A stretch of DNA of 64,000 nucleotides, taken from NCBI GenBank assembly GCA_017506865.1, contig JAFCMP010000212.1:372001-436000 (forward strand), read 5' to 3'. Shown piece by piece: positions 5,085 to 28,322 of this stretch. The notes beneath the pieces were generated by a model that saw only the letters and a list, made by a program, of their open reading frames with translations, made no database searches and was not told the DNA's origin. The stretch's first letter is position 1; the number at the start of each line of letters is the position of its first letter. This DNA comes from Tribonema minus (Eukaryota > Sar > Xanthophyceae > Tribonematales > Tribonemataceae). The position numbers and the translations under genes are program-made.

Positions 5085-5412
5085 TTGTGGCAGCGGTAGG
5101 CAGAAGTGTGCAAAAATGCATGTTGAGCACTGTGGCAACAGTTGAAGTTGATGTTGAAGATCAAGTTAAAGTTGAAGTTTGTAAAGTGTTGAAGTTGAGG
5201 TTGTGCAATGTTCAACACACTCCAGTTGAGGTTGAGACTGGTGGAATGGATGCTCAGCGGGCCGCGCTGAGCAATGCTGCGTGCATGTCTATCTGGTTAA
5301 TAATCACTGAACACCCAAAATCATGGAATGAAGACTTCTTCTTGTTCAGCCACGGAGCTTGCTTGGATCGCTGTCATGACTTGAAAGCACACTTCTTGGG
5401 CCCAAGGCCACA
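5085..5412 (+). repeat. Partial 5' LTR, type R2, of the nested gypsy element
   Basis: It matches the 3' half of the LTRs at 27,481-28,322 and 42,650-43,440 and ends in the same GGCCACA. The upstream part is missing, and the break with the zinc-knuckle relic falls at about 5,085. It is followed by a primer-binding-site candidate and a long leader, so it is the 5' LTR of the gag at 6,623. Confidence 0.75.
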
Positions 5413-8103: not shown

Positions 8104-8106
8104 AGC

Positions 8107-9519: not shown

Positions 9520-10374
9520 CGGAGGAGTTGTGGGAGCAGCTCAAAAGGGACTTTGTGAAACGCTTCCCGGAGGACCAACGGTGCGCACGGGCAGTGGATG
9601 CATGCCGCCGTTTGCGGCTAGCACCGGGCACGCGTATTCGTGCATTCGTGGAGGAGCTGAAGGTGCTGCACAAACGTTCACTTTCAAGCATTGAGCGCGC
9701 AGAACCAGCAGTGCGCATGGCGGGTTTCATGCGACTCCTGTGGAACACTCTCAGCCTGAGTGCCACGGATGCAGGCTCATCAGCGTTCTCACGGCGTGTG
9801 GGCATCCTTACCAACGTGGTACGTGCCAAGGAGAAAATATTGCAGCGCACCCAGAGCGTGGATCTAGACACTGATGCACTGGGTGCCCTCCTCGAGGACA
9901 AAGAGGAGGAGTTTGTGAACGAGAATTACCTCGAAAGCTGGGAGAGCCTGTTGGTGGCGGAGACCGAGGGCCGGCAGCAGGGAAAAGGGCGCCGCCGCGA
10001 GATACTGGGTGGTAACGCGGCGGATACCCTCAGCTCTCCCAGCTCAGCAACTGATGCAAATGTTGGCATGGGCAGCAATGCAACACCTGGTGCTCCGCCT
10101 GGCCCAAACGGACAGGACGTGCAGCGCCAAACCAACCAAGCCAACCAGCAACTGGCGGATGTGCACAGCAGAATCAACACATTGGTGTCGATGATGCATT
10201 AGTTGCAACAACAGCAACAGATGCAACAGCAAATGCACCAAGCTCAGCAGTACACGGTGCCTCAACAGCGACCGCAGTGGGGCGCAGGAGTTGGTGGCGG
10301 CGGTCGCGGTGGTCAGTATGTGCCTGGTGGGGGCCCCACAGCGTGGAACCAGGGGCCCATCAACGGTGGCATTT
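9516..10374 (+). pseudogene. Gag capsid C-terminal part with Gln-rich tail
   Basis: VTEELWEQLKRDFVKRFP..., followed by ...RIRAFVEELKVLHKRS, continues the gypsy capsid (PF03732) begun in the previous frame. A TAG at 10,201 interrupts a Gln-rich segment (MMH-stop-LQQQQQMQQQM) that stays open to a Gly-rich PQQRPQWGAGVGGGGRGG tail, ending at the LTR of copy A at 10,375. The nucleocapsid part, if there was one, is not present here and was probably cut off by the copy A insertion. Confidence 0.7.
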
Positions 10375-11180
10375 TGGCCTAGCGGCCTTGATGTGTGTAA
10401 ATACTACTCATTCCACAGCGTTTGCCATATAAACAATGACCAGATCCATGAGTAAGCTTTTTGTTGCGTAAGCTTTTTGTTTTTCAGGTGTCCAGTAATT
10501 TTATTGACAGTTGAAAGCAGCGCAGCATTGCTCAGCGCATCACCACGCATAAGCCTGACCCTACCTCTAGCAGCTCAGGGTTACTTCAACTTAAGTTGAA
10601 CTTCAACTTGAAGTTGAACTTGCAACTTCAACAAAACATGCAGAGAATGTGCAGCATCTGCTCATCAACCATCACGCATGTGCTGTCACACTTGCACCCC
10701 TGCATGCACCGCTGCCACATACCCCCCCTGCATGGTGCTCTCTGCATCCATGCATACAACCGGCAGCGGTCGATGACTCCCCTATTTTCCTTGTGCATGT
10801 TTCAACACAACAACTGCATGAACAATGTGCGAAAAACGCTCCGTGGCTCACTGGCAGACATCGCTGCGAAAGAGCAGGCGCCACATGCAGCAGCAATTGC
10901 GCAAAAGGCAGCACACGCACAAACTAGTTGTACTAAGGCTAGTCACAGACTGCCCAGAGACGGCAAAACATGTCCCCCCCCCATCGCTGAGCCAGTGCAA
11001 GGGCTGACTACTGCGCCGCGCGTCTTCTCCTCTCGAGGCCATGCCCAAAACTGCTAGCACTCGCTGGTTTGGCCTTGTAAGCGTAATCTGAAGTACCTTT
11101 GCCACATACAGAACGTAACTCATTGTGGCAGATACATAAGCAAGTCAAATGACCTGCTGAAGGGTGACAACAGAAGGCCA
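10375..11180 (-). repeat. 3' LTR, type R1, of copy A
   Basis: In minus sense the repeat runs from TGGCCTTCTGTTG (11,180) to ...GGCCGCTAGGCCA (10,375), 806 bp with TG...CA ends. It directly follows the integrase frame of copy A, whose stop falls inside it. It is homologous to the R1 repeats at 2,086, 32,951 and 38,516. On its other side it abuts the plus-strand gag, which marks the insertion edge. Confidence 0.8.
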
Positions 11181-13177
11181 TCTGCTCCGTCAATTGGCAC
11201 CAGAGTAACGGCTCCTGCCTCCGGCACCTCCCCTGGCTGACTGCTCACGTCCTCAGCGTCCGCTGAAATCTCCAGCCGCTGCTGCCACCACTCCCGCCAG
11301 TGTGGTAGCTGCTTTCCTGCGTATAGCTGTAAGTACCACGGCCATGCCTGTAGAAAGGCATCACGGTCGCGGAACTCGCGAGGGCAGAGCACATGTAGCA
11401 GCCGGCTCCTTTGGTCAATGTGAGCTATGAACCCTGGCACCAAGTCCTCCGCATGCAGACCTCCACCGCCAGGCGTTATGGTACGCCAAAACGCTCCTCG
11501 TATGTTGATCCACGCACCTTTTTTGAACACCTTGCCAACATTGGGGCCGGCCCGTGCCACGATAGTGTCTTCAGGTGACGTGGAGGGAGTTGCTGCTGTA
11601 TCCGTTGAACCATCCTTGTCAGGCTCAGAGGATGCTGTTCCACACACAACATATGGCCGTAGGCGTATCGCATGAACATAGGGGTTTGCCATGGCTTGGC
11701 CTGGTAGACTATGCCCAGGGGCAGGACGGACCAGGTAGGTATCACTGCCTTGCACCCGCCGCTCAATGACGTAAGGTCCAAACCAGCGCTGGGCTGTGAG
11801 CTTAGGGCTGCGCCCTTTGCGTCTGAGAAAGTGGTATACCCAGACCCGTTCTCCCACAGCATAGCGCCTGTGCCGCGCCTCGGGTGAGTTGGCTGCAAGC
11901 TCACGCAACTGCTGCTGTTCTCGTAGGAAATCCCTCACCAGCTCATGAGAGGCGGCAAGATCTTCCTCCAATACCTCCATATACTCCGCCACATCACGCC
12001 AGCGTGCTGGTAAGCTGCGCCGATCACGATTCAATGCCGCCTCGAAGGGGAGCACCGCTTCTCGTCCATAAAGCAGGCGAAAAGGGCTGATGCCAAAGGT
12101 CAGGTTGGGAGAGGTGCGGTGTGAGAAGAGCACCATGGGAAGCCGTTTGTCCCAGTCCCTCTGGCCACTGTCCGCGATCATGCTGAGCAACGCAACCAGT
12201 GAACCGTTGGCCCGCTCCGTCAAGCCGTTACACTGAGGATGGTATGGGCTTGAGAATCGGCGTGATGTGCCCACGAGCTTGGTCACCTCTCGCAGGAGTG
12301 TGCTGCGGAATTCCGCTCCATTGTCAGACAGCAGTACTCGGGGCGCGCCGTGTCGAGAGACGATCTCCTCGACCAGCAGTCGAGCGATGACGGCTGCTGT
12401 GTGGACTGGCACCGCAAACGCTTCTACCCAACGTGTGGGGTAGTCCGTGAACACCACAATGTAGCGGTTGCCGCGGTCTGACACTGGAAATGGGCCCACA
12501 ACATCCACTCCTACGATGTCAAAGGGCCCGCGTAGCTCCTCGTTGCCAAACCCCAGCACCGGCACGTTGGTTTGCCGCCGAAGCTTCCGCGCCAGGCAGA
12601 CCGGGCATTTGAGGACATGCTCCGCAACACTGGCATACTTACCCACCCAGTAATACCGCTGCGCTACTTTCGCGTATGTGCGATCAAATCCACAGTGCCT
12701 ACCTCCTATTGGGTCATCGTGAGCCCCGTGTAGCACCTGAGGAATTAGTGCTTTGGGGATGACCAGCCGGTCCTCCTCTGGCAGTCGCCGACCGCCCCGG
12801 CGCGTAACAATGTAGAGTCTCCCGCCAGCGACATAGTAGCCTGCATGCTTGGCCGCAAATATTTCTTTGAGCTGCCGGTCTGAATGGCCCGCTGGCACCA
12901 CCCCTCCTTCCAAGTAAGCCATAATAGCGCCTAGCTCGGCAGCATTGCGTTGTGCCGTCGCTATTTCGTCCACCGATGGCAGCCCTGCCGCCCGGCGGCC
13001 CACCACCTCCTGTGCACCACAGTGAACCACGCCATGCCGGAAGCACCCAAACACTTCCAGGGACAGCGCGCAGTGCGTTATGCAAGCACAGGGTGCTACT
13101 GTGGACGCCAAACGCGATGATCGCGGCTCGTCGTCCTGCCAAGAGCCCTCCAACCAGGCGCGACAAAGCGTCAGCAT
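11120..13177 (-). pseudogene. Copy A integrase
   Basis: 685 codons. The zinc-binding HHCC module is visible (GAHDDP, GRHCGFDRT, YYWVGKY, CPVC). The catalytic DDE triad is D in VDVVGPFPVS, D in LLSDNGAEF and E in NGLTERANG. A GPY/F-type region follows (VWVYHFLRRKGRSPK ... RWFGPYVIERR). After that comes a further segment of about 100 residues (GAWINIRGAFWRTITPGGGG ... FIAHIDQRSRLLHVLCPREF) shared with copy B. The frame is open but is separated from RNase H by a one-base shift near 13,170, and its stop lies in the LTR. Integrase would join element cDNA into chromosomes. Confidence 0.85.
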
Positions 13178-14944
13178 TGGCGTTCTTGTGCCCAGGCCTG
13201 TACACGATGGTCATGGCATACTCCTGCAGCACTGTGACATAGCGCTCCTGACGTTTCGTGCGCATGTCACTTGTAGGGTTGAGCAAGTACTTGAGCACCG
13301 CGTGATCAGTCTCCAGTATAAAGGGCCGACCATTGTGAACAAGTGGTCTGAAATGCAGCACCGCCTCCACTGCTGCGAGGGCCTCACGGTCATAGACAGA
13401 GTAATTGCGCTCCGCCTTGTTGAGTGTCCTGCTGTAGTAAGCAAGTGGTTGCTCTCCCCCAGCGCGCCGTTGAGACAAAACCGCCCCCAGTCCCACGTCA
13501 CTGGCGTCTGTCTGCAGCACCAGTTGAGTCGTGCCGCTGCGAATCCCCTCATAATCAGGGTGCGCCAGGAGTGGAGCTGAGCGGAGTGCGTCCTTCAACA
13601 TGGCCCAGGCTGCCACCACATCATCGGAGAGCTCGTGTGTTGCCTCCTTGCGTAACATAGCAGTAATAGGCTCCGCGATGTCACTGTAATGTGGGATGTA
13701 CTCCCTGTAATATGAGGCCATATGAAGGTACGAGCGAGCCTCCGCTATGTTGCGAGGGGGTTGCAGCTTGTCTATTGCTGCCACCTTAGCTGGGTCCACC
13801 TCTCGACCGCCGCCGTGTACGATGTTGCAGAGGAGAAGTATACTGCACCGTCAAGAGCATTGTGCATCTCGTCAGTGCGAGGTAGTGGGTAAGCGTTCAT
13901 GCCGTCCCCATGCTCCACAACGGCCTTGTTGACGGCGCGCAGGTCCTGCACCACTCGCAGACGCCCATCCGGCTTTGGCACCAGAAGGAGCGGAGAGTTC
14001 CATGGCGACGCTGCCGGCTCAATGACTCCTAGCCGCAGGAACCTATCTACCTCCTTCCACAGGGTCTCCAGCTCCAGGATCGAGTAGCGGCGCATCTTTG
14101 CACGAAAGGGCCTTGCATCCCCCACGTCAATGTGATGCCGTACCAGTGGAGTCGGTCGCGGGAGCTTGCCGTCGAAGCAAAACGCGCCTGCCTGTGCCAA
14201 GCGTAGAAGCACAAGGCCCAACTCCACCTGCTCCTCATCCGTGAGGTGGGCAGTCTGTTCTCGAGAGAAGCAAGCCAGAACAGAAAGCTCCTCCGTGGTG
14301 GGTGGCACTGCTGAATCTGTCTGCAGGCGCTCTCGAAGTCGTTGCCACCTCAGCTCACTCCCAGCAGGTAGCTCCGAAGGCGAGGAATGAGGCGGAGGAA
14401 TAGGCAACCCCGGCTGCTGATCAATATCAACATGCTCCACCTTCGTGTCTGCCCCCAAGGCTGATGCGTTCAACCCCGGGAGGCCAGTAGGAGAAGATTG
14501 CTCCTTTGATGTTGACCTACTCGGCTGAACACTTCCTGTGGCGGCGAAGACATTGGTCACACCCCCATTGCTGACTCCGCAGCTCGCACCGCCGTTGATG
14601 CCGCCGTCCGCCCAATGCACCCTTTTTCGTCCTTCACCAATCGCGAAAGGTGTAGTTGCGCTATGCTCCCCCCTGCGCGCACACTGCGCGCACAAGCGCA
14701 ACTTATGGGCGGGGCGGGTGGGCAACCCTTGTCGGGGGGGGGGGCTCATCATCCTCACCAAGGGGCTCCGCCAAGTTGTCGGTGTTTGTGTTGGTGTTGC
14801 TGCCATGGAAGTTTGTCGTTGAGGTATCGGCTGTTGCAGCACATGATTGCGGGTCATGTTGGTAGCGGCAGCAGGCATGCGAACGCAAGCGCCTCGTCGG
14901 ACACGGAAGTAGCTCGTTACGTTGACGGATTGTTGATATTGCAT
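13160..14944 (-). pseudogene. Copy A reverse transcriptase (core deleted) and RNase H
   Basis: The frame from 14,944 reads through a CxxC-containing linker to RT fingers (RRYSILELETLWKEVDRFL, NSPLLLVPKPDGRLRVVQDL, NAYPLPRTDEM, DGAVYFSSA). The next residues align with copy B about 340 bp further on, so the palm with the YIDD motif is missing and the frame changes. The second frame (13,799) gives the RT end (PRNIAEARSYLHMASYYREY) and RNase H (LQTDASDVGLGAVLSQRR, YYSRTLNKAERNYSVYDREALA, NADALSRL). It cannot make active RT. Confidence 0.85.
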
Positions 14945-15410
14945 GTGCAGCAGCAGCTGCAGGAGTCACAGTGGCCAGGGCGTGCTGAGAGCGTTGAGCA
15001 GCGCGATCATAGTGTTGATTCAGCCGTTGGTCGCGTTTAGCGTTGCGCGTGTCCGCCCGGCTTTGACCGCATCGTTGTTGCCATCGCTCAGCCTCCTTGC
15101 AATCAAAGGGGTGCAGCCATGTCACCACTGTCCCTTTCGGAATGCTGTCCATCCCAGCAAAGAAAACGGGGACCTCTACCTGGAGCGTGTCTGACGCTGC
15201 GCGATTCACGCCACCGCCGATCGCCGCCCCAAACTTCCAAAGTATGGTATTGTTGCTCTCAATATAATACAAGCCTGTTGAAACTGCTCCTTTTTTTACA
15301 TTAAAAATCGCTTGTCGGAAGCCACCGTCCTTGGAAGGCGCCCTAATATCCGTGGTTGCCGTAAGTGCGAAGCGCCGCAAAGAGTAGGCTTTGTCTGCCA
15401 TCATCGCCAC
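14703..15410 (-). pseudogene. Copy A dUTPase-like beta domain and linker
   Basis: The frame continues in phase from 15,411 across a TAG that aligns with a Gln codon in copy B. The first 100 residues (RRFALTATTDIRAPSK ... AVSTGLYYIES ... WKFGAAIGGGVN ... VEVPVFFAGMDSIPKGTVV) resemble a trimeric dUTPase in order and spacing: an AxxDIRAP block, a TGL strand, an F/RxGxA..GGV block, and a KG turn before the final strand. Key catalytic residues are not clearly kept. The rest is a Ser/Thr/Gln-rich linker ending at a run of ten G near 14,735-14,745, where the frame is lost. A retropepsin-type D[ST]G motif was looked for and not found. Confidence 0.35.
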
Positions 15411-16037
15411 CTAGTCGAATAGGTGCGCGCTATCTGCCGTGCTCACGTCCTCTGGACTCACCGACACTCCTTTGATTGCGCCTTTGCGCAACAGGTTACG
15501 CTCAGCCTGCAATAGAACAGGCAGCTGCGCAGGATCCGCCGCAAAAGCCCATGCTATGGCAGCCGCTTTGCACTGCTGCAGCGAAGACGCTTCCGGAAAC
15601 TTCAGAGAGCAAGGGGGCACCGCCACTAGGCCTGCTGCCTCACGATCATGTTGAGCTGATGGAGCCGCTTCTTTGTCCGACGCCCCCAGATTGGCAGGGC
15701 TCTGAAAAGCTCCCTCTGAAACCCCACACATTGCTGCCCATGAGAAGCCAGCCTCTGATGACTCAGCCGCGATCGCTGTGGGCCAGTCCACCAAGGTACT
15801 GTCCGCGTAGATGCCATCAATGAGACATGACCCCATCGAAAGCACGTCGGGCAGTGTATCATCCCCTGCCGGCGTAGGGCTTTGCCTTGCAAGCTCGCGA
15901 AGCGCTGGCTGGGCAAATAGGGCCTTAAGGACAGCTGCGCCAACCTGTGGTACCACCATGTCAGCCAAGCCTTGTGCCCAAGTGCTTTTGGTCGTCCCTG
16001 GAGGAGCTTTGAGATACAAAGCCCCCATCACACGCAT
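15411..16037 (-). pseudogene. Copy A methyltransferase C-terminal end and linker
   Basis: The segment begins MRVMGALYLKAPPGTT and includes VVPQVGAAVLKALF, which corresponds to motif X (the GNAV-like block) of C5 methyltransferases. It continues the frame of 16,056-16,475 across a TAA at about 16,050; copy B has ACT (Thr) at that place. The following roughly 170 residues are a helical linker ending HLFD before the TAG at 15,411. Confidence 0.7.
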
Positions 16038-16055
16038 CTTCTGAGCTGGTGTGAA

Positions 16056-18595
16056 TTAGACGTAATCCGCGACCCCCACTTTATCTGCTGGCCGAGGCTG
16101 AAGAGGCCGAGGAGGCTCCTTGCACATCAACATGCGCTTCTGTGCACCGGGATACTGACCTTGCAGTGGATACACCTGTGTCCCCTCACGGCTACGCGGG
16201 GCAGACCACACGCCCTTGGCCCCTGTGCGCAGAAGAGTCTCCATGAACCCCTGTTGCTCTTGTGGTATGCGTGAGTCAATGACTGCCAACGCCATTTGGG
16301 CCAGTGCATCACGAACAGCAGGACCGCCACGAGCAAACACCGCAATAAGCCGGTGCTTCTTGTACGGCGGTCCATGATCAGACGCCCGCATGCGCAAGAA
16401 GCTCACATGATAGCCTGCAGACCGAGCCAGTGCGAAGGCCTGCTGTGCTCTCGGCATAGACTGTGCCTGTAGCACGTTTCCAGCACGATGATGGGCTGCT
16501 TCACATGCACTAACTGTTCGATCAAGTGCGGTGTCAAGGCAGCTCGTGCCCCTTCGCGCCGCTCACCCTTGTTAGCGTCAACGTGCCGTGCAGAGGACCA
16601 GTCTCGACAGGGAGTTCCTGCCACCGCCACGCCAGCCCCAGATGAAACCAACGCCGTCCACGTGTCGGGCAAGTACAGGTCGCTGATCGTCAGCTCGGCG
16701 CCTGCTCCTCGGTTGGCGTCATAAAGCGGTTTCACGGATGCGTTGTTGTCCATAGCATACACAACGCGCCCGCCTGCTAGCTGCACTGCCCTGCTAAAGC
16801 CACCTAAACCAGCACAGAGGTCTGCCACCTTTGGCGCGTCAGGGCCCGGATCCGGAATTTGGTCAAGTGGCTGCTCCCATGAAGCCAAAGGAGCCCAGCC
16901 TGGGTCATGTAACACCCGCCCATCGTCACCAAAATGCGTGTACCAGGACTTCTGCTTCTTGGTGGGGCGAACAGTGGCAACGCCCACCTCAAAAATGCGC
17001 CGCCGCTCCGGCAACTCCAGCCCTCGCAAATACGGTGGCAACGGTTCTTGAGTTGCGTCCCCGCTGTCCGGATCACTGCTGTGAGCAGCAAACCTGTCGC
17101 CTGCAGGTAGACCTGACGGAGGTTGCGCCACCTTGGCGTGCTCTGCAGTCATGGGACTATCCGAAGTGCCCTTGTCCATGTCACAACCCACTGCTGGCTC
17201 ACAGGTGTCATCAGCAGACTGAGCAGACTGAGTGCTGTTGACGCGCCGCCGTACCTGTCGACGGCGGCGACGTTCGCCCTTAGACAGTGACGTGCGACCG
17301 GGGCGATTGCCTTGACCCGCCGCGTCGCCCGCCGGTACTGCATCAGAGTCGCCCTGCTGTTCAGAGGGGCCACTCTCTCGTTGCCCACTCACAGCGTGAC
17401 CATCAGTAGCTGTACTCTGTGCTCGCTCTGCACGGGCGATGGCAATGTGGATGCGCCTGATAGCTGCCAACCGCACCTTTGTGAGTCTGCCCAAGAGCAC
17501 AGGATAAAGGGCTCGTACACAACGAGTATGCCCGTGCCTCGGCAGCTCGATAGCGTGCTCGCGCAATAAAGCATCCACCCATCTGGCGGCGTCTGCACGG
17601 GCCACGCGACGCATTTCTGCAGCATTAGACGCGTCAAAGCCCCTCAAGATCTCCTCCGCCGACATATCGCCTGGAGGCAGGGCACCAGCAGCGCTCATGC
17701 GGACGTCTCTCATCAGAGCATCCACCTCCGTTGTGAGCCTTGCAGACACCGCTGCTTCAGCAGAGGATGCGGTATCTGCGTCTGACTGTTCGCCGCCGTA
17801 ACGCCGTACCAGAAGTGCACGCCGTATGGCCATCACCTCACTTTTGGTCCTGTCATCCACCGGTACCCCTGCAGAAAGGTGCTCTTCCACAAAGGTCTCG
17901 GTGGAGGCATGCATCTGGGCGAGGCGGTCCTTTGCGGCTGCCAGCAAGGCCTGGTGCCTGAGCGCTGCCTCGTCCAAGGCGGGGTCTATACAAGGGAAGG
18001 CCTCGGCCCGAGTCTCAGTGGCCCGGCGAATACGTTGATGCGTTCTGAACCCGACCACTCTGCTGCGACGGCGAGAGCGCGAGGAGCGTGGCTCGAATGT
18101 CTCTGAGCCCACACCGCCAGACGTGTCCTCACTTACGGGCGCAGGCTCCAGATCTGAGTCTTGCGCCATCTCCAGCGGAGCATAAAACCCTGCAGTGCTT
18201 AGATTAGGCACCGCTTCAGCTGCTGCAGAGCCTGCCAGCTTGGGCTGTTCCGCCTCACCACCGACGTTATCGCGCGGCAACCCTTCCGAAATACCACTGT
18301 TTATAGCAGCAGCTGCCCGAGGAGCCCGGCTGGCTACCGCAGGAATATGGTTCTCCTGTGTCAGCGCACTGGCGTCAGCCTCTAGAACGGCGGCAATCAG
18401 TGCCCTGGACTCGCGATCAGGCACGGTCTCCATCAACACCCATCGCAAGGCTGACACTATGGTGCCACCACCCGGCATCTCTTCCACCTCGGCCATAGTG
18501 CTGGGCTCCGCATCTGTGCGAGACGTGTTTACCTCTGCTGTGGCAGTTGAGACACCACTTACACCCATAGCCCTGTTGGTCACATCTGCTTCCAC
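16056..18595 (-). pseudogene. Copy A C5-cytosine DNA methyltransferase (gypsy-encoded)
   Basis: The 730-codon frame from 18,595 has an acidic and basic helical N-terminal part (basic cluster GERRRRRQVRRRVNS at about residue 435). Then comes the catalytic domain: motif I VADLCAGLGGFSRA, the SAM-site acidic region YAMDNN, motif IV AGTPCRDWSSAR (catalytic Cys at about residue 663, codon 16,607-16,609) and motif VI VLE. A one-base deletion at about 16,470 shifts the frame. The second frame (16,475-16,056) supplies motif VI N, motif VIII (PPYKKHRLIAVFARGG) and the recognition region. It would transfer a methyl group from SAM to carbon 5 of cytosine in DNA. As it stands it is frameshifted. Confidence 0.85.
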
Positions 18596-19300
18596 AGGCC
18601 GCTTGTTGTGGCTGTTGGTGCTGCAGAAGCATAGGTCGTCTCAACTGCTACTGCAGTGCTCCGCGCTGCTGTGTCGCCAGTGCTGCAGCTGTCCACCGCC
18701 GCTGGAGCTGCAGATGCATACTTTGCCTCATCTGCCACTGCAGTGCTCCGCTCTGCCGTGCCGCCAGTGCTGCAGTTGTCCACCGCCGCACGAGCGTTTG
18801 CCACTGCTGCAGTGCAGAGTTCAGAAGTCCCTGCGTCAGTCACTGCGCTAAGCTCCGCTGGTGCTGCAGAAGCATACTTTGTCTCATCTGCCACTGCAGT
18901 GCTCCGCTCTGCTGTGCCGTCAGTGCTGCAGCTGCTCACCGCCGCACGAGCATTTGCCACTGCTGCAGTGCAGGGTTCAGAAGTCCCTGCGTCAGTCACT
19001 GCGCTAAGCTGTCCCCCCCCCACGCGTGTTACTGTAGGGGCACGCGTGTGAACGCAGTGACAAGGGAGGGCGGGCGGGCGGTCGTTGCTGTAGATCGCGC
19101 CAGAGCTCGAGCAGCTGGAGTTTAAGCTGATGTCGTTAGTGACTTGCCCCATTGGCTCTACTGCGCCAGCTGCGGATGCAGACAGTGCATGCTCGAGCGC
19201 CGTCATTGCCCCCCCCCACTCGTTAGGGCCAAACTCGGGCAGCAGACGTTTGATGACATCAGGAACAATAGCGCTCCTGGTGCCACAGGCGGTGGCAATG
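18580..19300 (-). pseudogene. Copy A N-terminal region with 53-residue tandem repeats
   Basis: The open minus-strand frame ends close to the start of the methyltransferase ORF. It begins with LPAAIATACGTRSAIVP..., then has about two and a half copies of a 53-residue (159-bp) repeat containing ELSAVTDAGTSE..CTAAV and AERSTAVADE.KYASAAPA. The repeats are seen in the DNA at 18,640-19,020. No known domain. It meets copy B near 19,300. Confidence 0.5.
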
Positions 19301-21144
19301 GCAGCAGGCAGTGAATGACTCGGATGCCACACCTGCTGACTTATTCGCATCTCTGCAGTCAGCAGCAGTGAGGCTGACATCCTTGGACAGCACAGGATCG
19401 GTACAGCTTTCTACGGCTCAGAACGCCGCCAACGTACGCTTCGTGGTGACTGCTGTGCTAGCTGGCAAGGAGGTGCTTCTGGAGGGCATCCCGCTTGCCG
19501 ACATTGCTGGCTGCGGCTCTCCGGACGCCCGCCGTGCTCTTGCTGCGGGCTCAGTTACAGGTGCATCTCTCCATACGTGCAGCCCGCCCTCCCGCCCGCA
19601 GTGTGGGACACACTCGCCGGTGGCTTCGTGTGTGGGGGGGAGGAACACTGCTGGGAACATTGCGGCACCTACCATTGCTGACGCGCCGGCCGGTGCCACC
19701 GCTGCAGCTGACAGTACCGCCTCAACGCCAGAGGTAGAGGGCGTGATCAAAGACGAGACGCGGACAGGCAACAAGAACCCCTCCTCGACTTTGACACGTG
19801 AGAATGCGCTGACTGATTGCTGCGACGACGTTGCGGGGCCCACGAGCGACAGCTTGGTCGGCTGTGGCGCCGAAGGTGGTGAACGCTGTGACAGCGCTGC
19901 CCGCGTTCAGAGCTCTGAGGGTGGTGACAGCAATGAGTACGCAGCCCGCGCTCAGGGCGCAAAGATGGGTGGTGATAGTAATGAGGCCGCAGGCGATCAG
20001 GGGTTAGTGGCCTCCCAGCCGGATGATGGTCTCGTGACAAGCAGGGCAGATAGCCGCTCAAACGCGCACAGCGTCAACCTGGGCGGCAGCAACTCCAGCA
20101 ATGTTGAAATGTCAAACGACCTTGGGGCATCAGCTGCTCAGAGCGATGGCAGTCTGTCAGGGCAAGATGACACAGCCATGCCACTGTCGGCGGAGGACTG
20201 GGTTCTTAGCGACTCAGTTCTGGATCCTGACAGTCGTGATCTCATCAAGGCCATACGGGCCGCGGAACGGGTGGAGCTTGCCAGGCCCCATACGGTGCAC
20301 GTCACGTTGCACAAAACAGCTCGTTGCGTGCAATCACATGCAGTCGACATTGACAGCCCCATACATCATGCATCGCAACCAGAGGTGATTGTCAATGTAC
20401 ATGGTGGGCATGGGTTCTTTGAGCCTTTGGCGTCCCTACCGGAGGGCCTTGGTGATGAGGTGGACCAGATGATGGAGGAGAACATGGGGGATAACTCGGA
20501 GGAGTCCTCAAATAGCAGTTCTACGCTGTCTGGCGAGCGCGTGCAGGCCTACCAACAGCGGGCGGCTCTGCGTCGGCGTCGACGTATGGCGGCGCTCCGT
20601 GAGGCTACGCGGTTGGCATCTGTTGAGGAGAAGCGTACAACGGAGTGGCCTTGCATAGATCCAAAAGTTGGACGAGATGGCCATCAAGCACCAGAAGCTA
20701 CTCGATGCTGCACGTGATGCGTTGGCTAATGCATCGCAAACGACGGAGGCTTTCCTGGAGCAGCATGCGGATAGGCAGAGCCCGCTGGACTTGGAACGCG
20801 CAGCTTGGTCGCAGCCGCACGAAGGGAGCTGCTTCGCCGGCGCTTTGCTGGTGAGCAGTCTCGAGCTCAACCGCTCCCATCTGGTAAGGAGGGTTCGGTG
20901 GCCGTTGAGTTACAGGCAGAAGTAGAGCGCCTGCTGACAGAAGTGCGAGCTGCCAATACCTGTTCCTTGGATGGGGCGGGCTTGAGCTTCGATGATGGGG
21001 GGGTGGCAGCCTTCCCAGAATCTGATGCAGAAAACATGTTAACGGTGGCGAGGGCTGACGCACGCCGTTGGGTGCAGGCTCTATTGCGAGAGCATGTCCT
21101 GGAGATACCTAGGGCAGGCCGACGTCAGCGTATCACTGCACTAA
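19272..21144 (+). pseudogene. Copy B region upstream of the methyltransferase core
   Basis: A 468-codon frame (19,311-20,717; open back to 19,272) is Asp/Ser/Asn-rich and ends with a basic cluster (ALRRRRRMAALREATRL) and TEWPCIDPK, matching copy A (EAFPCIDPA). Homology to copy A then continues in other frames: LDEMAIKHQKLLDAARDAL from 20,665, RRELLRRRFAGEQ from 20,805. At least three frameshifts are needed to follow it to 21,145. It is the N-terminal extension of the methyltransferase polyprotein. Confidence 0.6.
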
Positions 21145-22806
21145 GTGCTTTTGAAACGCTTTACTCGCACACGCCTCCGATCCATTCAGCGCATGCACCG
21201 CGCGGTGCAACAGTCTGAGCAGGAGCAGCCTCGCACCAGGGAACCAACTTCATCGGACACACCAGGCAGCTCTTCGTATATGCCACACCGACGCAGGATG
21301 TCATCAACGAAGCGACGGCGTCGCAGGGAGACTATGGCACGCCGAAACGCTGCACAGACAGATGCCACCACCGCTGGCACTATGGGAGATAACAGAGGAC
21401 GGAAAATGGCCGCTGACAAAGTACCAACAACTCCGTCTACAGTGCTACCAGAGGGTCTGCCGTCGGCTGATCGCTTCGCGGCCCAAGGGCCAGATCACTC
21501 TTCCTCCGAATCTGGCACGCGTGTGGCAGACATCCCACCTTACCTGTTGGGCATGAAGTTGCCGGAACGGCGTTCCATCTTTGAGGTGGGGATCGCCACC
21601 ACGAAGCGTGATTGGCGTCGCGGGGGGTGGTATCAATACTTTGGGTCAGACGGCGCAGTCATACACGAGCCTGGCTGGGCTCCACTACAGGACTGGGAAC
21701 AGCCAGGTGATATGGGGGACCCTGGGCCAGACGCGGTGAAAGTGGCAGACCTCTGTGCCGGTATTGGGGGGTTCAGCCGTGCCGTACAGATGGCAGGAGG
21801 GCGCGTGTATGCCATGGACCGCAACGCAGCAGCGAAGCGCGTCTACGATGCCAATCGTGGTGTTGGTGCTGAGCTCTCCACCAGAGACCTATACACCTCT
21901 GAAATGTGGGAGGAACTGGCGGCCTCCGGCGCTGGCATGGTAGTAACGGGGCCCCCTTGTACAGATTTCACATCAGCACGCTTGGTACGAGCAGACAAAG
22001 GGGAGCGTAGAGAGGGCACCAGAGCAGCCCTCACGCCCTTGCTGGTGCATCAGCTGACGCAAATGCAGTTGCCATTGGTGGTGTTGGAAAACGTGGTGTC
22101 TATTGAGTCAATGACTCGAGGACAGGAGGCCTTCGCATTGGCACGCGAAAGGGGGTATCATCTGTGCTTCCTACGGCTGAACGCCAGTGACTTTGGGCCA
22201 CCATACCAACGGCGGCGCTTATTTGTAGTCATGGCTCGGGGTGGGACTGAGGTGCGTGACGCCCTAGCACAGATGTCTCTGCAACTCCTCAGTGGACGGC
22301 TGCCTCCAGATCAGCAGTGTAGCATTGAGGGTTTGCTGCGTACAGGTTCTACAGGCGTGTGGAACCAACCTCGCAGCAGGGAAGGCTCGCAGGTCTATCC
22401 GACGGCTGGCAAGTATCCCAGTGCTCAGGCCCGCATGTTTACATGCAGCAAACCACAACACCGACTGCAAGCACGGCCTACGGACAAAGTGGGAGTGGAT
22501 GACTTTACGACTCTGTCCCCTTCGCAGAAAATGCGTCTGGTCGGTGCTCTGTACCTGAAAGTGCCGGTTGGCACCACTAAGCAAACCTGGGCACAGGGCT
22601 TGGCAGACATAGTGGTGCCAGAAGTTGGGGCAGCGGTGCTGAAAGCCATATTCGCACAGCCGGCGCTGCTTGAGTTAGCACGGCGTCGTCCAGATCTGGG
22701 CAGCCCAATACAGGCAGACCACGGAGGTATCAATGCAGGGAGTGTGCCTGGTAGATGGCATATACGCAGACTGCCCACCTCTAGGGCTGGGCGGAGAGGC
22801 AGATGA
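21145..22806 (+). CDS. Copy B C5-cytosine DNA methyltransferase domain, open reading frame
   Basis: All the landmark motifs lie in one open frame of 553 codons: motif I KVADLCAGIGGFSRA (about residue 198), YAMDRN, motif IV VTGPPCTDFTSAR (catalytic Cys about residue 272, codon 21,958-21,960), motif VI VVLENVV (about 313), motif VIII YQRRRLFVVMARGG (about 354) and motif X VVPEVGAAVLKAIF (about 490). The roughly 130 residues between VIII and X would be the target-recognition region. The reaction is SAM-dependent 5-methylcytosine formation in DNA. This is the least damaged methyltransferase copy here, but its natural N-terminal part is frameshifted and the frame is lost again at about 22,730. Methyltransferases captured by retrotransposons are reported in dinoflagellates and charophyte algae. 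This is another instance, in an unidentified host. Confidence 0.88.
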   Translation: MLLKRFTRTRLRSIQRMHRAVQQSEQEQPRTREPTSSDTPGSSSYMPHRRRMSSTKRRRRRETMARRNAAQTDATTAGTMGDNRGRKMAADKVPTTPSTVLPEGLPSADRFAAQGPDHSSSESGTRVADIPPYLLGMKLPERRSIFEVGIATTKRDWRRGGWYQYFGSDGAVIHEPGWAPLQDWEQPGDMGDPGPDAVKVADLCAGIGGFSRAVQMAGGRVYAMDRNAAAKRVYDANRGVGAELSTRDLYTSEMWEELAASGAGMVVTGPPCTDFTSARLVRADKGERREGTRAALTPLLVHQLTQMQLPLVVLENVVSIESMTRGQEAFALARERGYHLCFLRLNASDFGPPYQRRRLFVVMARGGTEVRDALAQMSLQLLSGRLPPDQQCSIEGLLRTGSTGVWNQPRSREGSQVYPTAGKYPSAQARMFTCSKPQHRLQARPTDKVGVDDFTTLSPSQKMRLVGALYLKVPVGTTKQTWAQGLADIVVPEVGAAVLKAIFAQPALLELARRRPDLGSPIQADHGGINAGSVPGRWHIRRLPTSRAGRRGR

Positions 22807-23700
22807 GCCCAATGGTGAGCCACAGCAACAAAAGCGTTCAACAGCTAGCATGGCGGAGGCAGATGATGCACATCCGGTTGCTTCAGTTTCGAGCTTTGCG
22901 GCTCTAAGCGCCCGTTCGGCGAAGGGGTCAGTCAAAGACAGAGTAGCAGATGCGGTGGAGGCGGCCGGCTTGGCGGCGGTACCCAAATGCCAAATGCGGA
23001 TGCCGTCACTGTCAACACTGCAACAGTGCAAGGCGCAAGCTGTGGCGTGGGCGTTTGGCTGTGGCGTGGGCGTTTGGAGCAACAGCGACCGCGCAACTGC
23101 CAATACTACTGCAGGCAGAGCTCAATTTGTTGAACAGCGGAGCGATAAAAGGAGTGGACTTGAACGAGGACGTACCGCCTGCCGATGGTATGGACGACGT
23201 CCACCCCTTTGATCAAGTGCCGCTCATGGCCGACCAGCCTTACTCTCGCCAACGGTTCGCTCTTGTGGCAGCCACGGATTTACGGGGCCCGGTTAAAAAC
23301 GCTGGGTGGGCTACGTGCACACTCAAGATCAGGGCAGGAGCGGTTGCCTCAGGGCTGTTTTTCGTGGAGGGCTCCAACACTATGCTGGCCAAATTTGGGG
23401 CTGCTTCTGGCGCAGGAATCGACTTCGCTGCCAGCCCTACCTCTACAGTGTCAGTTCCAATCTTGTTCTCGCGCGCCAATGCAATCATGCCAGAGGGGGC
23501 GGTGGTGGCATGGCTACACCCTTTTTGCAAGGACGAGAACACGCGGCGCATAATGAACCTCCGGAAGAGTTTCGCCCACCCACCCGGCCCAGTGGTTGCG
23601 CTTGTGCACACGCTTCGTGTGCAGGGGGGGAGTATAGCGCAACACTGCCTGCTGTGCAGAAAAATGAGAGCAAGCAGGTGAAATGGGCTGAGGATGTTGA
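22807..23700 (+). pseudogene. Copy B linker and dUTPase-like beta domain
   Basis: The linker is frameshifted by a 19-bp tandem duplication at about 23,040-23,078 (GCTGTGGCGTGGGCGTTTG twice). The beta domain at 23,219-23,524 (RFALVAATDLRGPVK ... GAVASGLFFVEG ... KFGAASGAGIDFA ... VPILFSRANAIMPEGAVVAWL) parallels copy A and is dUTPase-like by motif order only. A CxxxC-type stretch (GCACAHASCAGG) in the next frame precedes RT. The copy B frame change here is -1, while copy A shows +1. Confidence 0.35.
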
Positions 23701-25457
23701 AGTATGGGGGGGTGACTCAGGTACCACGGCCTCAGAAGCAACAGCAGCAACAGCGACGTTGCCTGTCAAATCGATTTTGAGAGTGCAAATCGACACTGCC
23801 TCTCTTGCGCAGGACTGCAATGCGGCAGAACCTCAACCGGCTGTAGACATCAATGAGCCACCAGGACAATATCCGCTTCCGGCAAAGGAGCAACCTACGA
23901 CTTTACCGCATGGCACGGAGGGTCGTTGGCAACGGCTGCGTGAACACCTTAAGACTGGCGTGAGTACACCACCTACAACAGAGGAGATAGCCGTGCTCGC
24001 CTGTTTCACACGAGAACGGACGCCCCACTTGACCGACGATGAGCAGGTGGAGCTCGACCTGGTGCTTTTGCGGCTTGCGCAGGTTGGTGCGTTCAGTTTT
24101 GATGGCAAGCTGCCTCGACCAACGCCCCTGGTCCGACACCATATCAATGTGGGTGATTCTGCGCCTTGAAGGGCCAAGATGCGACGATACTCAATCCTGG
24201 AGTTGGAAACTCTCTGGAAAGAGGTTGACCGGCTCTTGCGGATGGGGGTCATCGAGCCAGCATCATCACCTTGGAATTCTCCACTGCTACTAGTGCCCAA
24301 GCCTGACGGCCGACTACGGGTGGTACAGGACCTACGCGCAGTCAACAAAGCAGTCATGGAGAGGGGTGACGGGTTGGACGCTTACCCGTTGCCGCGCACG
24401 GACGAGATGCACCACGCGCTTGACGGCGCTGTCTACTTTTCCGCCGCAGACGCACAGGATGGGTTTTGACAGATTGAGCTCGACGCAGAGTCACGGCCGA
24501 TCACAGCGTTCCAGACTCGTTGGGGCCAGTTTCAGTGGCAGGTGGGGACCATGGGGCTCATGCGTATGCCAGCCACATTCCAGCGTATAATGGAACTAGC
24601 GGTCGGCCACGACGCTCTGTGGGTATACGCGCTGGTCTACATCGACGACGTGCTCATTTTCTCACGCACATTTAGCGAGCACCTGGTTCACGTGGAGCGG
24701 GTCTTCACGAGGTTAGCACAGGCAGGAGTGGTGCTCAAACCGACCAAGTGCCACTTTGCACAACTTCGAGTGAAGTTTTTGGGGCACATAGTCCACGGCG
24801 GTGGTCGGGAGGTGGACCCGGCCAAGGTGGCGGCGATTGAGAAGCTGGAGCCGCCCCGCAATCTGGCGGAAGCAAGGTCATACCTGCAGATGGCATCGTA
24901 CTATCGCGAGTACATTCCGCACTTTTCGGACATAGCAGAGCCCATCACGGCTTTGTTGCGGAAGGATGCCAGCTTCGAGCTCACAGACGAGGTAGTTGCA
25001 GCCTGGTCCATGCTGAAGGACGCTCTACGGTCAGCCCCTATACTGGCTCACCCTGATTATGAGGGCATCAGAAAGGGCGAGACGCAGTTGGTGCTCCAGA
25101 CCGACGCCAGTGATGTGGGACTGGGGGCGGTGCTATCTTAACGACGTGGTCATGCCGAACAGCAGTTTGCTTACTACAGCCGTACTCTCAACAAGGCGGA
25201 GCGCAACTACTCCGTGTACGACCGGGAAGCGCTGGCAGCGGTGGAAGCAGTTCTTTTCTTTGTTGCACAACGGACGTCCGTTTGTGCTGGAGACGGATCA
25301 CGGCGCACTGAAGTACCTGCTCAATCCCACCAGTGACATACGCACTAAACGGCAGGAACGTTATGTCACAGTGCCGCAGGAGTACGCCATGACAGTTGCG
25401 TACAGGCCTGGGCAAAAAAACGCCAATGCTGACGCTTTGTCGCGCCTGGTTGGATGA
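23700..25457 (+). pseudogene. Copy B reverse transcriptase and RNase H, with stops
   Basis: Conserved RT blocks are LETLWKEVDRLLRMGVIEP, NSPLLLVPKPDGRLRVVQDLRAV, FQTRWGQFQWQVGTMGLM, then the catalytic VYIDDVLIFSRTF, the RT end and connection (NLAEARSYLQMASYYREYIPHFSDIAEPI) and RNase H (LQTDASDVGLGAVLS, DREALAAVEA). The frame is broken by TGA at about 24,166 (copy A codes Phe), TGA at about 24,469 (Gly-Phe-stop-Gln-Ile, where gypsy elements have an aromatic), TAA at 25,139 (copy A codes Gln), a shift near 25,255 and TGA at 25,455. The palm present here is the part missing in copy A. Confidence 0.88.
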
Positions 25458-27472
25458 CACTGGCAGGACACGGCATTGGAGGCAAAGGCGCAGTCACAGG
25501 GCGCCGCGGGCAGGACGGTGGTTTCAGGGGGGGGTGTCTGTCTGACCAGGCGGGGCCTCACTGCAGACGCGGTGGGATGCTTCCAATGTGGCGTGGCACT
25601 ATGTGGCGCACAGGTCTTGATGGGACGTCGCAGGGCGAAGTTACCCGGGAGCGACGATGTGTCAGCAGCTCAGCGTGCCGACCCGTTCCTAGGGGCAACA
25701 ATGGCACATTTGGAGGGCGGAGTGGTGAGCGCTGACCTCTCGGAACAGCAGCTCAAGGAGGTACATGCTGCCAAGTGGGCTGGCTACTATGTTCTAGCAG
25801 GGCGGCTTTATATTGCGGCACGACGCGGCAGGCGGGTACCTGAGGAGGACAGGTTGGTGCTACCGGCAGTGTTGGTCCCCCAGGTCCTGAGTGGAGCACA
25901 CGGCGACCCAGTTGGCGGAGGCCATTGCGGCTTCGATCGCACATATGGCAAGATTGTCCAGCGTTTCTACTGGGTCGGCATGTATGCTGCGGTCGCAGAG
26001 CACGTGCTGAAGTGCCCTACATGCTTGGCGCGGACGCTCCGACAGCAAAGCGGAGTGCCAGTGCGCGGTTTTGGCAGGGAGGAACTCCGAGGGCCGTTTG
26101 ACTTGGTGGGGGTGGATGTTGTTGGGCCTTTCCCAGTTTCCAATCGAGGCAACAACTACATAGTTGTCTTCACAGACTACCTGACTAGATGGGTGGAGGC
26201 GTTTGCAACATCTGACCATACGGCGCCGACAGTAGCACGGCTCCTCGTACAAGAAGTCATTGCGCGACATGGGGCTCCATGCATTCTCCTGTCTGACAAC
26301 GGGGCAGAATTTCGCAGTACGCTGCTGCGAGAGGTGACCCGTCAATGGGAGTTTCACGACGATTCTCAAGCCCATATCATCCACAGTGCAATGGCGTAAC
26401 GGAGCGAGCCAATGGGTCGTTAGTGGCCCTCTTGAGCATGATTGCCGACAGTGGACAGCGTGACTGGGACGAGCGGCTACCTTTGGTCCTCTTCTCACAC
26501 CGCACAGCACTCAACTTGACTTTCGGCGTCAGCCCCTTCCGACTCCTCTATGGTCGAGAGGCAGTGTTATCATTTGAGGCAGCGCTAAAACACCAGCGAA
26601 ACGTGTTGCCTCCGCGCTGGAGGGATGTAGCAGAGTACATGGAGTTGCTGGAGGAGGACTTGCAGGCCTCGCATGAACTTGTCAGGGTCTTCCTGCAAGA
26701 ACAACAGCAATTGCGGAATCAGGCTGCGGGGTCTCCGGAGGCGGTACAACGGCGGTTTGCTGTGGGATCGAAAGTGTGGGTATACCATTTCTTGCGGCGC
26801 AAGGGGCGTAGCCCTAAGTTGACTGCAGAGCGATGGTTTGGCCCATACGTGGTGGAGAGGCGCGTGGCAGGCAGTGATACGTACCTGGTGAAGCCAGCTC
26901 TCGGGCATGATCAATTACCAGGCCCAGCGATGGCGAATCCTTACGTACACGCCATTCGATTCCGCCCCTACGATCCGCATGAGCGCATCACCGCGCAGGC
27001 GGGACCTAATGCTGGACGCATCTTCCAAAAGGGTGACTGGGTATATCTCACAGGCGAATTTTGGCGTTCTCTCTTGCCGGGCGGGGGGGGAGTACACCCA
27101 GAGGACCTGGTACCTGGAGTGATTGCTCACATAGATCAGCGCAACCGACTGCTGCATATACTCTGCCCAAGGGAGTTCCCCGATCAGGATGCTTTTCAAC
27201 AGGCGCTCCCTCGCTACTTGCAGCTCTATAAGGGCATGCAGGTGCAACATTGGCATGTCATTGAGTGGTGGTACAGGAAGCTGGAGGTGGAGGCGGATGA
27301 CCCTCTTATTGCAGAACAGCCTGCCACGGCCCCAGTCGCAGCACTGTGGGTACCTCTGGAGGGGAGGGCGTTAGCAAAGGCGGAGTCGCTGGCGATGGTG
27401 ACCACGGAATGCTCACCGCAGACGGGTCATGAACAGCCACACGCTCATACACGGGGGGGCAACAAGACGTAG
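25458..27472 (+). pseudogene. Copy B integrase
   Basis: Two frames: 25,476-26,399 and 26,345-27,472, separated by a one-base deletion near 26,345. The HHCC module (GAHGDPVGGGHCGFDRT, RFYWVGMY, CPTC), D in VDVVGPFPVS, D in LLSDNGAEF and E in NGVTERANG are all present, followed by the GPY/F region (RWFGPYVVERR). The same roughly 100-residue C-terminal extension as in copy A follows (GDWVYLTGEFWRSLLPGGGG ... VIAHIDQRNRLLHILCPREF). It ends at TAG (27,470-27,472), just before the LTR. The deletion makes it inactive. Confidence 0.88.
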
Positions 27473-27480
27473 TTTTCATA

Positions 27481-28322
27481 TGTGCGCAAGGCGTGCATGT
27501 CGCATACACGGGGGCGACAAGGGGTAGTTTTCATATGTGCACAAGGCGTGCATGTTGCATGTACAATAGTCTTGTGCTGTGACACACTTGTCCCATTCAG
27601 GAGGATGTTGTTATCACGCAGACAACGCCCGAGAATTCTGGCTGCTGACTATTCAGCGCCTGGAACGAGGCCGGGGTTTGGGGTACCAAGAGGTTGATCG
27701 CGACCCTTAGCGTGGTGCAACGGACTATAAAACTGGGCTGCCACCTCAGCCTAGGACATGGGAGCGGGGGGGAGTGTTGTTTGTGCGCGTTTGCGCGAGC
27801 GCAGTGCGTTGGCACCGGCCATTGTGCTGTATGCGTTTTCTGCTTCTGTTTTGCAGCAAGGTGCTAGATGTAACGGATTGTTTGCACGTGATGTGAGGAC
27901 ATCCAGTGATGGCACAGCACATGCGTGTTGCTTGTACCGCTGCAAGTTGTGCATGGATGCAGAGAGCGCCATGCAGGGGGGGTATGTGTGGCAGCGGTAG
28001 GCAGAAGTGTGCAAAAATGCATGTTGAGCACTGTGGTGACAGTTGAAGTTGAAGTTGAACTTCAAGTTGAAATTGAAGTTTGACAAGTGTTGAAGTTGAC
28101 GTTGTGCAATGTTCAACACACTCCAGTTGAGGTTGAGACTGGTGGAGTGGATGCTCAGCGGGCCGCGCTGAGCAATGCTGCATGCATGTCTATCTGGTTT
28201 TAAATTAAAATAATCACTGAACACCCAAAATCATGGAATGAAGACTTCTTCTTGTTCAGCCACGGAGCTTGCTTGGATCGCTGTCATGACTTGACAGCAC
28301 ACTTCTTGGGCCCAAGGCCACA
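27481..28322 (+). repeat. 3' LTR, type R2, of copy B, with TATA box
   Basis: It follows the integrase stop and is homologous to 42,650-43,440 over its whole length, ending ...GGCCACA at 28,322. The start is placed at the TG near 27,481. A 57-bp near-duplication (about 27,455-27,565) blurs it. TATAAAA at 27,726-27,732 is a likely U3 promoter. A hairpin (8-bp arms GCTCAGCG/CGCTGAGC, 28,153-28,173) and AAGTTGAA/TTCAACTT arrays lie in the 3' half. Confidence 0.8.

Follow-up and report, generated by a model that had tools for sequence, protein, structure and literature searches.

A predicted C5-cytosine methyltransferase domain carried by Ty3/Gypsy retrotransposon families of the yellow-green alga Tribonema minus

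Ty3/Gypsy retrotransposons of Tribonema minus carry a domain that, judged from its sequence, is almost certainly a C5-cytosine methyltransferase (MTase). Comparison of coding sequences showed that this domain, which lies between gag and reverse transcriptase (RT) within the polyprotein, is under purifying selection. We tentatively propose that a DNMT2/Dcm-like MTase was captured once, was made a central component of an entire Ty3/Gypsy radiation among yellow-green algae and was inherited strictly as RT was. Its fold may be useful without catalysis, in part as a particle or nucleic-acid-binding module and not solely as an epigenetic enzyme.

Two broken copies and their methyltransferase domain

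The window (the whole stretch of 64,000 nucleotides that was analysed) contains two copies, element B and copy A. Both are broken, and neither has an intact polyprotein. Element B is a 14-kb LTR element, split by an 8.9-kb block that holds copy A. Its 5′ LTR (5086..5412, + strand), with the ends TGTGG...CCACA, pairs with the 3′ LTR (27987..28322, +), the identity being 93.5% over 340 bp with 27987-28326. No target-site duplication was seen at the LTR edges. The gag-like part (7264..10372, +) shares 96% identity with its counterpart in a sister copy in C312, and PF03732 was matched weakly by the frame 9489-10202 (E 0.0096, below the cut-off). The interrupting block (10373..19250, no strand assigned) consists of the inverse copy A and a piece resembling a long-TIR element. 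Its ends, read at the edges, are not LTR-like, and no LTR pair was found for copy A. On either side of the block, the window runs collinear with the copy in C312.

Beyond the block, element B resumes with a frame 5′ of the MTase (19272..20717, +), where the family goes on in P0001 and in the copy of C312. A protease-like stretch lies 5′ of the MTase in the sister copy; the corresponding part is absent from element B. The MTase frame (21145..22806, +) is followed by an intervening region (23058..23525, +), by RT with the start of RNase H (24470..25141, +; PF00078, 1.9e-17) and by the integrase region in two overlapping frames (25458..27472, +), which has 71% DNA identity with the integrase part of copy A. 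The RT of element B contains a stop, and a stop lies directly upstream of the frame 24470..25141. The label dUTPase-like, given to the intervening region in the preliminary description, found no support: the frame of this region has no Pfam match at E 0.01, and its strand-rich model has a mean pLDDT of 41.5.

Copy A lies on the minus strand, with an integrase frame (11120..13210; PF17921, 8.7e-14; PF00665, 2.5e-12) and an RNase H frame (12714..13850; PF17917, 1.3e-31). Its MTase is spread over three frames and broken directly after the VLE of motif VI. Motif X (15411..16055, −) and motif VIII with the next region (16056..16562, −) align with element B, and the third frame (16403..18640, −) holds an upstream region and motifs I-IV. 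Ten window frames were searched against Pfam. Besides the MTase, RNase H and integrase were recognized in A, and RT and RNase H in B; the frames for integrase in B and for RT in A were assigned by mutual similarity.

The MTase frame of element B matched PF00145 with 69.1 bits (5.8e-19; profile positions 2-169; window positions 21739-22278), and the frame 16403-18640 of copy A with 36.9 bits (3.6e-9; profile 2-107), the cut-off being 22 bits. These matches confirm the earlier claim of a gypsy family with its own C5-MTase. The motifs described for the copies were confirmed: motif I, DLCAG(I/L)GGFSRA, motif IV (GPPC in B, GTPC in A) and the motif X region, GLAD[IM]VVP, are present in both, and in B the VLENV of motif VI lies in an open frame and motif VIII reads QRRRLFVV. 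In A, motif VIII reads KKHRLIAV, and motif VI is split as described above.

The frame of B also matched TIGR00675 (4e-16, below its cut-off), the nearest NCBIfam model being that of the DNA MTase dcm. In the fold search, the best 50 matches listed were all C5-MTases. When the family profile was compared with solved structures, DNMT2 was the best match (4.4e-26), followed by HhaI (9.7e-20) and DNMT1 (4.8e-18); DNMT3 was absent from the best 60 of 64 profile matches, with E up to 0.14. The best-matching DNMT2 structure bears the name tRNA (cytosine(38)-C(5))-methyltransferase, and the best PDB match of B's own domain was HhaI. A chance motif match is ruled out by the Pfam, PDB and fold matches, together with the two opposite-strand copies and eight further loci of the same family. 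The domain shares with DNMT2/Dcm-type C5-MTases, its best profile and fold matches, the canonical order of motifs I, IV, VI, VIII and X that is common to these domains. It differs from them in being embedded in a retrotransposon polyprotein, and in that the motif VIII-X region of B is not recognized by Pfam and is poorly modelled.

Families, selection and origin

About 287 MTase-bearing loci, fragments included, were found in the 158-Mb genome. They were drawn from lists of 120, 118 and 140 matches and from 10 of 82 further ones; matches at most 3 kb apart were merged, and loci were counted by the MTase match. A PF00145 match above the cut-off was obtained in all 123 scored places among 378 candidates, four of which (L001-L004) are separate genes. 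L001 adjoins a dNMP-kinase-like frame, and this neighbourhood may hint at integrated large-virus DNA. The window family has eight further loci, whose fragments are mostly 87-95% identical, two loci being more degraded. Confinement of the domain to the two window copies is ruled out by these numbers. The earlier description of a single gypsy family was correct as to its existence and too narrow in scope, since the genome holds at least 11 MTase-bearing families in three RT lineages. The only stretch checked as a possible MTase-less gypsy, L129, also carried an MTase. In family F5, RT was looked for and not seen. The first two protein searches gave three and five relatives and the last one gave one (P0009).

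Open frames among the MTase-bearing elements reach 3561 aa, and in many copies they run through the MTase domain. Neither window copy preserves an unbroken polyprotein; in L031, L032 and L035, MTase, RT, RNase H and integrase lie in a single open frame by Pfam (rve below the cut-off in each), with RT, RNase H and integrase in the Ty3/Gypsy order. A C-terminal chromodomain is present in L032 (8.6e-7, above the cut-off), and a weaker terminal one in L035 (7.9e-5, below the cut-off). Simple direct LTRs of the TG...CA type and 4-bp target-site duplications were observed in E31, E33, E35, C312 and C292, the LTRs of the first three being 97-100% identical. A TGG-containing, primer-site-like sequence lies 3′ of the 5′ LTR.

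The dN/dS ratio of the MTase was finite in 11 of 12 pairs and lay below 1 in all of these (0.12-0.56), the twelfth pair being saturated at synonymous sites; between families it was 0.17-0.24. Motifs are kept across families whose domains share only 19-23% identity with that of the window. Among 13 family representatives, the Cys of motif IV and the ENV of motif VI are each kept in 12. Pro-Cys is kept in nine, including the window family, and F7b, F9 and F9b are without the Pro.

The representative lacking both Cys and ENV belongs to F10. In this family, 25 residues including the catalytic Cys are deleted in frame and ENV is changed to ENA, and the domain alone scores 16.2 bits against PF00145, below the cut-off. 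The deletion junction was found in 29 places, frames extend to 3455 aa, and the LTRs of the copy in C292 are identical. By its sequences, F10 is a young multi-copy family that keeps the domain without the catalytic residue. The remaining domain has changed in protein no faster than in its relatives (branch dN 0.093 vs 0.143 and 0.168, with similar dS). Two F10 copies differ at seven nonsynonymous and four synonymous sites, and constraint after the loss is not evident between them.

The MTase and RT trees are congruent and contain the same three lineages. The element MTases fall into a single clade, apart from those of phages and bacteria and from other MTases of the host (86/86 support, below the star level of the tool), in a tree without a DNMT1, DNMT3 or DNMT5 row, which included 17 hand-picked loci of 80 viral ones and omitted L003 and any further copies of a family. 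No close viral donor was found: one search gave none, and another gave 131 relatives, of which 80 were kept, with 26-37% identity in the core. The MTase was probably captured a single time, to judge from these trees. A prokaryote- or phage-like MTase would have entered ahead of the divergence of the three RT lineages and would thereafter have been inherited jointly with RT. The MTase precedes the protease in lineage R2 and follows it in R1 and R3, with protease matches below the cut-off or made by eye, and this difference in order could mean two captures.

What the domain may do

Sequence footprints of methylation were sought. No element-specific CpG depletion was found, the values being 0.82-1.02 in element stretches and 0.59-1.04 in sixteen 4-kb window blocks. 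Transitions at CG and CHH were 0.037/0.019, 0.033/0.015, 0.031/0.028, 0.016/0.016 and 0.048/0.030 in five parts of F4, and 0.047/0.021 in a window repeat that has no MTase match among the matches listed. The CpG transition excess in the F4 parts thus ranged from none to about twofold, and was equally large in a TIR element. Short-site depletion had no outlier in 293 kb of the genome, the lowest 4-base ratio being 0.71. Neither CpG depletion nor depletion of any short site speaks for self-methylation. The earlier suggestion that the element methylates its own or the host's DNA gained nothing from these searches, and the young F10 family has lost the Cys.

We consider that the MTase domain may be packaged together with RT and integrase. 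In the Pro-Cys families it would bind AdoMet and methylate cytosines of the element's own new cDNA, a proposal supported by analogy with SymbioDIRS-Dnmt3 domains, for which de novo CG methylation in yeast is described (PMC5890265). A second, non-catalytic job, in nucleic-acid binding or polyprotein architecture, could be why F10 retains the rest of the domain after the loss of Cys. The explanation as a whole, combining capture, cDNA methylation in the Pro-Cys families and the second job, has in our estimate an even chance; for cDNA methylation as the main activity, the chances are somewhat short of even.

The fold might instead be kept chiefly because it serves the polyprotein as a module for structure or nucleic-acid binding, with methylation secondary or being lost. 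The in-frame loss in F10, its spread to 29 places, long frames, identical LTRs and low branch dN fit this reading, as does the missing Pro of F7b, F9 and F9b. However, Cys in 12 and Pro-Cys in 9 of the 13 representatives are hard to explain without catalysis. The F10 deletion may also have arisen late on its branch, and other families could supply F10 with MTase. We regard this reading as rather unlikely. The same tolerance of F10 would suit a functionless passenger carried by chance, but motif conservation across such divergent families, the dN/dS between families and the many frames open through the domain make this hardly credible.

Reverse transcription of LTR elements is primed by tRNA. 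The substrate could be RNA, either element RNA or the tRNA primer: DNMT2 is the best solved-structure match, a primer-site-like sequence follows the 5′ LTR, and no DNA footprint was found where one was sought. Since the DNA enzymes HhaI and DNMT1 are close behind DNMT2, the nearest NCBIfam model (below its cut-off) is a DNA MTase and B's best PDB match is HhaI, an RNA substrate seems distinctly unlikely. A target in host, rival-element or viral DNA, by which host silencing would be bent or fed, would agree with the antiviral role that has been proposed for retrotransposon methylases, as described in PMC6338049, and with a possible viral origin of the L001 surroundings. No depleted site stands out in the 293 kb, however, and F10 is left unexplained; we think such a target very unlikely.

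Relation to described elements

C5-MTases of retrotransposons are on record for dinoflagellates and for a single charophyte (PMC5890265), in agreement with the preliminary description. In that account, KnitGypsy-Dnmt3 of Klebsormidium nitens is likewise an LTR Gypsy that has many copies and a C5-MTase in its polyprotein, with purifying selection acting on this enzyme. That MTase belongs to the Dnmt3 class, whereas the Tribonema domains, by profile matches and a tree without a Dnmt3 row, appear to resemble DNMT2, HhaI and DNMT1 and not DNMT3. The repeats of KnitGypsy-Dnmt3 are described as DIRS-like, in contrast to the simple LTRs and 4-bp duplications found here. In Symbiodinium, likewise, SymbioDIRS-Dnmt3 and SymbioLINE-Dnmt bring the number of retrotransposon MTases in a single algal genome into the hundreds, and the SymbioDIRS type has two architectures, as here. 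According to the same source, however, these elements are DIRS and LINE rather than Gypsy and carry Dnmt3 or orphan MTases, and some have reduced CpG, of which no case was seen here (PMC5890265). The chromodomain and Tudor Gypsy of Ectocarpus and Tribonema are also stramenopile Gypsy with chromatin-related extra domains, but no C5-MTase is reported in them in the portions of that study available to us (PMC12477816).

At least 11 coexisting families with intact, altered or absent catalytic residues form a natural series for testing the need of catalysis, and with it what such an MTase may do for the element. Elements of this kind can escape notice in gene models: of one element, the public Tribonema minus model JKP88DRAFT_354395 retains the gag and protease portions but no more than shards of the MTase, so surveys of DNA methyltransferases based on gene models can miss them.

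Methyltransferase domain and element anatomy in the window

The preliminary description had claimed a C5-cytosine methyltransferase (MTase) domain in two Ty3/Gypsy copies, and Pfam detected it in both. PF00145 was matched at 69.1 bits (5.8e-19) in copy B (plus strand, frame 21145-22806) and at 36.9 bits (3.6e-9) in copy A (minus strand, frame 16403-18640), above the cut-off of 22 bits. Motifs I, IV, VI, VIII and X, reported for both copies, were all directly readable in copy B. The copy A frame is broken past VLE in motif VI, with motif VIII and motif X each in a different frame. Besides the MTase, Pfam domains for RNase H and integrase were found in copy A, and for RT and RNase H in copy B. 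The structure model of the B domain (7 rows) had a mean pLDDT of 56.4 and was fair only over about the first 190 residues; in the fold search with this model, all 50 of the matches listed were C5-MTases.

Element B is an LTR element, of which the 5′ LTR (5086-5412) and the 3′ LTR (27987-28322) are 93.5% identical over 340 bp. A gag-like region occupies 7264-10372 (PF03732, E 0.0096, under the cut-off). Between 10372 and 19251, B is interrupted by an 8.9-kb block composed of copy A, inverted, and a piece resembling a long-TIR element. A sister copy in contig C312 is 15.3 kb long, with a 4-bp duplication (CATG) and with LTRs that share 97.3% identity over 330 bp. It possesses 0.9 kb at this site, containing a protease-like stretch with 38% identity over 55 aa to the related protein P0009 (E 8e-5) and an active-site-like D-P-G-A. 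The window family is thus ordered gag, protease-like, MTase, unassigned region, RT, RNase H and integrase. The unassigned region corresponds to the part labelled dUTPase-like in the preliminary description; it yielded neither a Pfam match nor a usable structure model, and the label is putative.

A tandem duplication (156 bp twice at 93%) was observed at the edge of copy A (18616-19010). A further B-type LTR end region lies at 42716-43440, with 88% identity to 27598-28322. The segment 49417-50082 has 76% DNA identity to the matching polyprotein region of the F3 family elements L031 and L032, and is a predicted remnant of a third MTase-family element.

MTase families across the genome and constraint on the domain

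In the genome (158 Mb, 554 contigs), the PF00145 profile search gave 378 candidates, and all 123 that were scored exceeded the cut-off. Searches with MTases of the families, with matches merged within 3 kb, gave about 287 MTase-bearing loci, fragments counted in. The domain is not limited to two copies, a limitation that the preliminary description had named as refuting its claim; the finding is genuine and broader than stated there. Among 13 family representatives (F1 to F11, F7b and F9b), the motif IV Cys was present in 12, the preceding Pro in nine and ENV in 12. F7b has Ser-Cys, F9 and F9b have Arg-Cys, and F10 lacks the motif IV segment and has ENA instead of ENV. Complete elements with 4-bp duplications include E31 (LTRs 209 bp, identical), E33 (413 bp, 97.3%) and E35 (214 bp, 97.2%), and open frames of up to 3561 aa occur. 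The frame of locus L034 matches the public T. minus gene model JKP88DRAFT_354395 (99.0% over 208 aa, 100% over 113 aa), in which gag and protease parts are retained and the MTase is reduced to shards; the model omits nearly all of the L034 MTase, as though intronic. By this match, the genome is probably that of T. minus or of a very close relative.

MTase codons gave dN/dS below 1 in every defined pair (0.12-0.56). The values were 0.205 (F1/F5), 0.225 (F3/F8), 0.237 (F7/F7b) and 0.172 (F9/F10), 0.12-0.56 in five closer pairs, and 0.34 and 0.41 in two distant pairs near saturation; one pair was undefined. Between copies A and B, dN was 0.23, 0.34 and 0.16 over 101, 129 and 60 codons, with dS >2 or saturated. 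Where comparable, RT was under stronger constraint than the MTase (RT of F3/F8, 0.09). As for methylation footprints, CpG observed/expected in the elements was not below the rest of the window, and no conspicuous depletion of short sites was detected. The excess of CpG over CHH transitions reached about twofold in some parts of F4, was absent from others and was equally large in a TIR element.

F10 has lost 25 residues in frame, including the catalytic Cys. A 41-base pattern over the junction occurred at 29 places in the genome (28 exact), and the reversed pattern at none. Of the 29 F10 matches with at least 96% identity, 27 cross the junction, two start past it and none contains the deleted segment; four lie within frames of 3452-3455 aa. 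In C292, where RNase H and integrase are present, the F10 LTRs show no difference over 399 bp; in C33 they are 99.0% identical over 398 bp. For F10, F9b and F9, respectively, the 317 shared MTase codons gave a branch dN of 0.093, 0.143 and 0.168 and a branch dS of 0.74, 0.63 and 0.77. F10 had 20 unique amino-acid changes versus 42 in F9 with F9b as the third row, and 12 versus 14 with F4. Three points weaken a strong reading of F10: the deletion is not placeable on the branch, a pair of F10 copies shows 7 nonsynonymous against 4 synonymous differences, and the family may receive help in trans.

Lineages, origin and published context

Three lineages are common to the RT and MTase trees: R1 (F1, F3, F8), R2 (F2, F6, F7, F7b, F11 and the environmental polyproteins P0005-P0007) and R3 (F4, F9, F10), with F5 in R1 and F9b in R3 on the MTase tree only. 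In an MTase tree of 16 retroelement, 17 phage, two bacterial and three other host MTases (no DNMT1, DNMT3 or DNMT5 among the rows), the 16 retroelement MTases stand together on one side of a branch (support 86/86, not starred), and the nearest row beyond them is a phage MTase. The profile from eight family domains matched DNMT2 best (4.4e-26), followed by HhaI (9.7e-20) and DNMT1 (4.8e-18), with no DNMT3 in the best 60 of 64 matches. The MTase lies downstream of the protease in R1 (L035) and R3 and upstream in R2 (L033, L129), with protease matches under the cut-off or by eye. This order is compatible with a single capture and a subsequent move as well as with two captures.

This kind of element is already known. 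The consulted part of de Mendoza et al. 2018 describes KnitGypsy-Dnmt3, SymbioDIRS-Dnmt3 and SymbioLINE-Dnmt, and methylation of DNA in yeast was obtained with the DIRS domains alone (PMC5890265). Excerpts of PMC6338049 state in general terms that retrotransposons with DAM or DCM domains exist, Stramenopiles being among their hosts, which makes the lineage less novel; no Tribonema element of this type is named there. For T. minus, excerpts of PMC10538959 report DNMT5 together with a DNMT4-like protein. Those of PMC12477816 describe Gypsy elements of the chromodomain and Tudor types in Ectocarpus and a Tudor homologue in T. minus; Tribonema is unmentioned in the excerpts of PMC9998398. In the open-access papers searched, no description of C5-MTase gypsy elements of a yellow-green alga was found. 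Nor did the literature examined contain an account of the MTase class, of the diversity within a single genome or of the family that lacks the catalytic residue.

Putative separate MTase genes and other repeats

Among 30 loci excised after the PF00145 search, L001-L004 have frames of 196-390 aa and seem to be genes of their own. L001, L002 (C223) and L003 (C181) are stand-alone MTase frames of 367-390 aa, with PF00145 at 8.4e-38 in L001 and 4.1e-33 in L002. L001 is adjoined by a deoxynucleotide monophosphate kinase frame (PF21448, 2.8e-21), which may point to integrated large-virus DNA.

The segment 32949-39108 (6.2 kb end to end) is bounded by two inverted stretches of 588 bp that share 97% identity, and it resembles a DNA transposon of the long-inverted-repeat type. 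At 2084-5079 lies a related piece of 3 kb (93%), and the window family's copy in C312 is located within such a repeat. A further tandem duplication (242 bp twice at 99%) occupies 59803-60286.
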